A stretch of DNA of 64,000 nucleotides, from NCBI GenBank assembly GCA_021927905.1, contig BLLK01000046.1:682001-746000 (forward strand). Direction: 5' to 3'. Positions within the stretch are counted from its first letter, which is position 1; each line of letters starts with the position of its first letter. Both the position numbers and the translations under genes were made by a program. This DNA is from Chaetoceros tenuissimus. Taxonomy: Eukaryota > Bacillariophyta > Thalassiosirophyceae > Chaetocerotales > Chaetocerotaceae. Below, in pieces: positions 54,170 to 55,390 of this stretch. The notes under the pieces are model-generated. The model did no database searches. It saw only the letters and a list, made by a program, of their open reading frames with translations, and had not been told where the DNA came from.

Positions 54170-54760
54170 ATGGTCAGGATAGCTTTGCTATTCACAATTC
54201 TCTCGGCTGCTCACGCATTTGTGAGTCAATCTTCCCTCTTCTTTCCACGCACTGCAACTTCGTTGAACATGATTGATGAGGAATGTCCGGAAATACCTAT
54301 CGAAGCACAACTTGATCCAAAATATGATACAGCAATCATAGCACTAGGGTGATTCTGGCACCCCGACCAGGCATATCAGCTTATGGAAGGGGTAGAAAGA
54401 GTAGTTGTAGGATACACTGGTGGTGTAGAAAAAAATCCCACCTATCAAAAAATCATGGATGCTACAGAGGCCATCCTTATTGAATTCGATCCATCTCGAA
54501 TTTCATATGAAAGCATTTTGAATGAGTGGTCTAAGCAGCATTATCCATTCATGAAACAAAAGTGCCAATATCGCTCTGCAATCTTTGTCAAGAATGCAGA
54601 GGAGAGAGAGATTGCAGAAAAGATTGTGAAGGAGTTGGAAGCAAGTAGCGGAAAAACTGTTTACACAGACATTGAAGATGCAGGTGCATTCTATAGAGCT
54701 GAAGAGTATCACCAAGACTTCTTGAATAAACAGTCTAAAAGCAGAGCTTTCATGTGGTAA
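54170..54760 (+). CDS. msrA: Selenocysteine-containing peptide methionine sulfoxide reductase A (MsrA), plastid-type presequence
   Basis: A reading frame of 197 codons including the final stop, interrupted only by TGA at 54350-54352 (codon 61). The TGA sits exactly where MsrA enzymes have the catalytic cysteine, giving 'AIIALGUFWHPDQAYQ' with U for selenocysteine. Everything after it is a good MsrA: 'VVVGYTGGVEKNPTYQKIMD', 'FDPSRISYESILNEW', 'YRSAIFVKNAEE', 'YHQDFL'. The N-terminus (MVRIALLFTILSAAHAFVSQ) is a signal peptide with an A-H-A-F junction, suggesting plastid import. MsrA reduces oxidised methionine; a Sec form is known in green algae. The usual Glu after the motif is Asp here. A SECIS element must lie downstream of 54760; I could not prove one by eye. 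An intron over the TGA would be only about 22 bp, so it is not likely. Confidence 0.88.
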
Positions 54761-55390
54761 CTATGGCAAAGGAATCCCAAAATTATCAAAAAGTGTAGAG
54801 ACAGTGTGAATGACGGACATATTTCATGATAACAAATATGAAAACTATATCAAGGGAATATGACTCGAACAACAAAGTCAGCATTCTAGATAATTTGAAT
54901 TCAATTTAGGTAAAGTATGCAAGAATTATAACATGATGATAAATTATAAGTTTAATGTTTTGATTAGTTTTGTTTTCTTTTTTACTGCTTGCTAGACTAA
55001 ATCTTTTCCCTAGCTCGCTATACTAAAAAGTAATCCTGTGATGTAACTTTATTCCTTTACAAAAATGTCTGCAGTCCATCTAAGTAGAAAAGTTTCCTGT
55101 GGTATTCTAGAAGGAATAATTTGAAGATGAAATGAAAATAATATTATGTAAAAATGAAAGGGAGTTTGGATTATCTAGCTAGGGAAAGAGCTGGTGATTT
55201 CAAAAAAGACGGCGAAACCCCCTCTGCATAACAACGGTCACTTCTTGTTTACATACTCATTTCAACATTACAACATCAAGTAATACTGCACTATCTACAT
55301 GATAATATCCCTTCATAGAATAAAGCATAGCAATACTTTCCATCAGACCCATCTCCATCCAAGAAGCCTCAGCCCTCCCTCGAAATTGCA
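54761..55390. other. 3' region of the selenoprotein gene and upstream region of the SLC35B gene
   Basis: No coding sequence. It should hold the SECIS element of the MsrA gene. Candidate structured spots are around 54809-54846 (CATATTT and AAATATG can pair) and around 54935-54970 (ATGATGAT...GATTAG), but neither shows a full SECIS core that I can confirm. Confidence 0.4.

Follow-up and report, generated by a model that had tools for sequence, protein, structure and literature searches.

A Candidate Selenocysteine MsrA of the Diatom Chaetoceros tenuissimus and the SECIS-Like Element That It Shares with Nine Other TGA-Bearing Genes

Introduction

Methionine sulfoxide reductases of type A (MsrA) that carry selenocysteine (Sec) at the active site are described from bacteria and from algae. 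Since Clostridium oremlandii is bacterial, its MsrA belongs to a system in which Sec insertion uses a hairpin adjoining the UGA. In one survey the diatoms carry between 20 and 44 selenoprotein genes, and MSRA is one of the algal selenoprotein families (PMC7539508). Thalassiosira pseudonana is listed with 16 selenoproteins, one of them a Sec-MsrA (PMC2375036). Neither "plastid" nor "chloroplast" is mentioned in the main text of the first of these studies (PMC7539508).

The gene described here was found in a window of 64,000 nucleotides of Chaetoceros tenuissimus (contig BLLK01000046.1), the whole stretch of DNA that was analysed, and positions below are those of the window. Like T. pseudonana, C. 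tenuissimus is a diatom with a putative Sec-MsrA and with tRNA-Sec in its genome; unlike it, C. tenuissimus appears to have two Sec-MsrA where one is listed there, the two diatoms being likened by description and not by sequence (PMC2375036). A preliminary description of the locus had noted that MsrA selenoproteins occur in some algae, which the T. pseudonana gene bears out (PMC2375036). Sec-MsrA is thus already known in algae, and the window gene is a well-supported candidate for one more.

Results

The MsrA Frame and Its In-Frame TGA

54170..54760, + strand: candidate MsrA selenoprotein coding sequence, 196 residues, Sec at codon 61, single unbroken frame, TAA stop
54350..54352, + strand: TGA within the coding frame, at the catalytic position, interpreted as Sec from the frame, the alignment, PDB and a matching TGA in paralogue L008

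The ATG at 54170 and the TAA at 54758-54760 share a frame with the TGA at 54350-54352, whose context is ALG-U-FWHPD. Translated with read-through of the TGA, this frame gives a single PMSR domain (PF01625) over residues 54-190 of 196 (Pfam, E = 4.6e-37; 128 bits versus a curated cut-off of 23.7). The 405 nt (135 codons) 3' of the TGA contain no stop in the coding frame, and 8, 10, 1, 7, and 9 stops in the remaining five frames. The gene is flanked by a FEN1-like gene (XPG domains) and by a UAA-type transporter gene. Sequence comparison therefore confirms two earlier claims, that one MsrA protein spans the TGA and that the TGA sits at the catalytic Cys position: the frame 54170-54760 is intact, and its TGA aligns with the Cys of relatives and with U16 of C. 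oremlandii MsrA. A gene finder taking the TGA as a stop would end the protein at residue 60 or begin it past the active site, so that the Sec call corrects a gene model.

Active Site and Structure

The prokaryotic set comprises 440 relatives, of which 80 were kept as loci and 20 translated; 18 of these enter the alignment (L036 and L040 left out) and 16 the tree (L036, L038, L040, and L047 left out), the ranges of L031 and L045 being cut at stop codons that fall beyond the domain. No relative was found in viral contigs. Codon 61 aligns with Cys in 18/18 aligned prokaryotic relatives, but one of the two search patterns required GCFW, so that this count is not independent and the prokaryotic search cannot tell whether Sec-bearing prokaryotic relatives exist. 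Four diatom paralogues that were found by Pfam (L004, L005, L007, and L011) also have Cys at this position. The G-C/U-F-W motif and conserved Glu and Tyr residues have active-site roles in MsrA, and G60, U61 (entered as C in the alignment), F62, W63, Y82, E100, and Y134 are invariant in all 20 rows.

Two residues had been singled out as odd in the preliminary description. The Asp found after the motif in place of Glu turns out to be usual in this branch of MsrA, as the 18 prokaryotic rows have Asp in 13 cases, Glu in 4, and Ser in 1. The Cys of KCQYRS (Cys132) is indeed unusual, as it is absent from every other of the 20 rows, whereas Cys39, in a CPEIP motif, is common to the window protein and L008. 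Either of these cysteines, or glutathione together with glutaredoxin, could resolve the selenenic acid. Resolution by glutathione with glutaredoxin is reported for Clostridium Sec-MsrA (PMC6316033).

Seven PDB sequences match at E up to 1e-22. Six are titled C. oremlandii MsrA (4lwj, 4lwk, 4lwl, 4lwm, 4u66, and 4w8c), and the seventh, 7c13, has a title naming a glutaredoxin and a matched chain labelled MsrA. The alignment to five PDB chains is gapless from query 50/chain 5 to past query 120, and hence residue 61 corresponds to chain residue 16 and Glu100 to chain residue 55. According to the PDB titles, the native residue 16 is U (U16C and U16S variants) and E55 mutants exist; E55, the equivalent of the retained catalytic Glu E100, is mutated in 4lwl and 4lwm. 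The predicted structure of the window protein (pLDDT 81.5) has 4lwk as its best structural match (Foldseek rank 1, E = 8.1e-14, rmsd 1.0 over 133 columns). The two proteins thus share the fold, the equivalent position of a (here putative) Sec, a short loop before the catalytic Glu, and the Glu itself. They differ in the residues following the motif, GPD in C. oremlandii and HPD in the window protein, and, judged by lengths, the C-terminal helical domain named in the title of 4w8c seems absent from the window protein.

Paralogues, Phylogeny, and Location

The genome yields 11 PMSR matches, a count of matches and not of genes. Three of them have a TGA: the window gene, L008, and L007. L008 has its TGA at the same catalytic codon as the window MsrA, with which it shares 44% identity over 160 columns. 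The comparison of homologues at codon 61 that had been proposed as a check therefore gives Cys in relatives and TGA in this paralogue. L007 was rejected as a Sec candidate, as its TGA lies by eye past an exon border and the enzyme has Cys. In the phylogenetic tree the window gene and L008 are sisters (96/90), and the pair is placed beside short-loop prokaryotic MsrA with moderate support (88/78). The remaining diatom MsrA are on long branches, so that a deeper origin of the Sec-MsrA is not claimed. A Cys-type MsrA, L005 (G000:C33:678290-678739), lies on the same contig about 57 kb from the Sec-MsrA, just outside the window.

The two sister genes differ at the N-terminus, where the window protein has the following feature:

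54170..54271 (end approximate), + strand: N-terminal presequence MVRIALLFTILSAAHA-F..., a plastid-type bipartite signal by eye, from the sequence and low pLDDT

Diatom plastid proteins have a signal peptide, cleavage at A-F (ASAFAP-like), and then a transit peptide. Read by eye, the N-terminus of the window protein, MVRIALLFTILSAAHA-FVSQ, is signal-peptide-like and has AHA-F, and pLDDT is low across most of residues 1-29. The N-terminus suggests that this MsrA may be imported into the plastid. The paralogue L008 has no presequence, begins MGNKMSMKCPEIP, and is apparently cytosolic.

A SECIS-Like Element Downstream of the Window Gene

54800..54807, + strand: candidate for the 5' side of SECIS helix I, weak and by eye, its GAC and TGT pairing with GTC and ACA at 54872-54879
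54809..54869, + strand: SECIS-like element; AATGAC is the 5' side of the quartet (54809-54814) and CGAA the 3' side (54866-54869)
54818-54825 with 54855-54862, + strand: helix II of the element, CATATTTC with GGAATATG, from folding

This element begins 49 nt past the UAA stop and would lie in the 3'UTR of the mRNA. Its core has the NUGA with GA opposite on the stem (ATGAC from 54810, CGAA 54866), and the flank duplex energy around the candidate helix I is -5.7. When a motif model is built from the other nine genes described below, this site scores 15.3 bits and heads the ranking within its flank, where the runner-up has 7.1; over the 64 kb and both strands it again comes first, the next being at 15.0 (29574, - strand). 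Its hairpin has p = 0.0025 when the 70 nt after ATGAC are shuffled, which is the floor of 400 shuffles.

There is no AA or CC 10-13 nt after the ATGA, the nearest AA being at 17. Close to the quartet, helix II contains a mismatch, and a short competing hairpin is possible by eye (CATATTT with AAATATG). Searched up to E = 10, the Rfam SECIS model RF00031 detects nothing in the flank of the window gene. A strict SECIS scan requiring AA or CC found none in the flanks of the window gene and L008, after which this criterion was relaxed. The earlier expectation of a SECIS downstream of the gene is thus supported by a SECIS-like element at a suitable place, with the caveats that Rfam does not detect it and that it lacks the apical AA/CC.

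Ten TGA-Bearing Genes with a Common 3' Element

Ten genes of the genome have a TGA at a redox position: the two MsrA, three GPx (L013, L014, and L015), one SelT-like (L018), one SelM-like (L021), and three SelU-like (L022, L023, and L024). In the eight non-MsrA genes we take this position to be the redox one from family motifs, and for the GPx it is also backed by a Cys paralogue (L012). In the SelU-like genes (AhpC-TSA_2) L022, L023, and L024 the in-frame TGA is just 5' of the family match, its contexts being PG-U-VLC, FG-U-FLC, and LG-U-PFC, respectively. In L022 and L023 the frame ends a short way upstream of it, which makes an exon border there likely.

The hexamer AATGAC occurs 39-87 nt past the stop in 10/10 of these genes, the window gene included, followed by a possible hairpin and NGA. 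It occurs within 140 nt of the stop in none of 11 control flanks of 300 nt each, taken after the stops of eight genes of the MsrA, GPx, and AhpC-TSA_2 families, of SelD, of SecS, and of the FEN1-like gene, for some of which the true last exon is uncertain (L005 is not among them). The control flank of SecS has an AATGAC at 276. The background is 139 AATGAC in 316,016 bases on both strands, real sites included, or about 0.02 expected per 49-nt stretch. Requiring a hairpin at -7 kcal/mol or better leaves 14 of the 139, about ten of which are the real sites together with that of L009, a copy of the window gene that is counted in this background and not among the ten genes. In the converse motif test, 8/9 of the other genes rank their own site first, the exception being L015. 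Shuffling p-values of the hairpins of these nine genes range from 0.0025 to 0.075 (Fisher over ten, p = 2.7e-11). Helix II pairs at 6.6/8 positions within genes versus 3.6/8 between genes (permutation p = 5e-5), a figure that is biased upward because the choice of arms was made visually on the folds. The 3' hairpin partners were chosen by energy in the shuffling test and by eye (nearest TGA) in the pairing test, and the two choices do not agree in every gene, L013 and L015 being examples of disagreement.

The SECISearch rule asks for NTGA, AA or CC 10-13 nt on, and GA 15-39 nt further (PMC2375036). Three of the ten genes conform to it, L013 and L015 with AA and L021 with CC, and the AA/CC is absent at 10-13 nt in the other seven (L008, L014, L018, L022, L023, L024, and the window gene). 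The apical rule may be loose in this diatom; alternatively, the functional pairings may differ from some of those assigned here. The nine other loci likewise give no RF00031 match up to E = 10, and none was found across the genome among the 133 of 891 candidates that were scored; as the model misses all ten candidates, its silence says little here.

The stops of the ten genes are TAA in four, TAG in six, and TGA in none, whereas TGA accounts for 2/8 control stops. If a SECIS could recode a terminal TGA, one would expect no terminal TGA in such genes, and the contrast with the controls hints weakly in this direction.

Sec Machinery in the Genome

The genome searched (41.0 Mb, 68 contigs) looks able to decode Sec, as much of the Sec machinery can be found in it. 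There are ten Rfam matches to tRNA-Sec, five of them above the cut-off (L001, L002, L003, C34:1126986-1127071, and C54:1808110-1808207). The same Rfam model also matches 14/14 control genomes, above the cut-off in five, and the independent ARAGORN call therefore matters: it gives a TCA anticodon (tRNA UCA) in each of the three loci fetched. tRNA-Sec is generally assumed to be single-copy; the three loci read here (L001, L002, and L003) differ in sequence. Several tRNA-Sec genes are also reported in the diatom Fragilariopsis cylindrus (PMC5330540).

EFSec domain 4 is found with E = 3.9e-15 and matches none of the control genomes. SecS (E = 5.6e-113) and SelD (E = 1.5e-75) are present, and a PSTK-like gene (E = 2.9e-12) is far under its cut-off (50 versus 382 bits). 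The tRNA-Sec(UCA) and the EFSec domain are among the components whose presence the preliminary description had left to be checked, and both are found.

The sole SelD match, L020 (C19:93680-94678), carries Cys instead of Sec in the active-site motif, as judged by eye. Its open frame extends upstream by 130 residues or more and there seems to encode a fused domain of NADH dehydrogenase type. For T. pseudonana, the listed selenoproteins include an SPS2 with Sec (PMC2375036). The genome also has 11 silicon-transporter matches (best E = 2.3e-211), in keeping with a diatom. Three of them are adjacent at G000:C17:442278-446357, each with a 1459-residue open frame, which suggests a fused triple transporter; one silicon-transporter match at this place contains a TGA and a TAG.

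Discussion

The gene is almost certainly a methionine-S-sulfoxide reductase with a Sec nucleophile, its UGA61 being decoded via a 3' SECIS. Ribosomes on the mRNA would meet UGA at codon 61; the hairpin 49 nt past the UAA would recruit the SECIS-binding and EFSec apparatus; and this would bring Sec-tRNA(UCA) to UGA61 in place of termination. To judge by its N-terminus, the product may then enter the plastid, and the presumed Sec paralogue L008, having no presequence, would remain cytosolic. The earlier proposal that this TGA is decoded as Sec is supported, most of the checks proposed with it having turned out in its favor: the SECIS-like element, tRNA-Sec, and the EFSec domain are found, as are SecS and SelD. 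The sequence shows the frame, the place of the TGA, the 3' element common to the ten genes, and a large part of the Sec machinery; read-through at UGA61, enzyme activity, and import into the plastid are inferred.

The gene could instead be a pseudogene, or the TGA a point mutation or an assembly error, since a single substitution turns TGC or TGT into TGA and the sequence is that of an assembly. One would then not expect 135 intact codons after the TGA, nor a paralogue with TGA at the same codon, nor eight further genes with TGA at the redox position and the same 3' element, which makes such an accident very improbable. We give equally little credence to a TGA that specifies Cys or another amino acid, by a reassigned code or by general read-through. 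Some protists do use TGA as a sense codon, yet nothing specific favors it in this genome, where other genes appear to end in TGA (two of the eight control stops), where tRNA-Sec, the EFSec domain, SecS, and SelD are all found, and where AATGAC follows the ten TGA genes and none of the 11 controls within 140 nt. The least probable alternative is a TGA that is spliced out or is a true stop, so that the locus makes either one short protein or a pair of proteins. Although the ATG at 54383 opens a 125-aa ORF, this ORF by itself is without the active-site loop, removing the TGA codon also removes the catalytic residue, and the shortest GT..AG over it by eye (about 22 nt) deletes most of FWHPD.

With decoding of UGA61 as Sec as the preferred reading, the less ordinary part of these results concerns the SECIS candidates, whose apical region is relaxed. 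A variant class of SECIS, defined by AAUGAC as its strict core and by a stem 39-87 nt past the stop, and able to dispense with the apical AA/CC, might operate here, the window gene being a plastid-imported selenoenzyme decoded by it; this is a tentative proposal, and we rate its chances below even. The ten 3' elements suggest that the Rfam SECIS model and apical-AA rules would miss selenoproteins in such genomes. For the biology of the diatom, two Sec-MsrA, apparently one in the plastid and one in the cytosol, suggest that selenium-based methionine repair may take place in two compartments of the cell.
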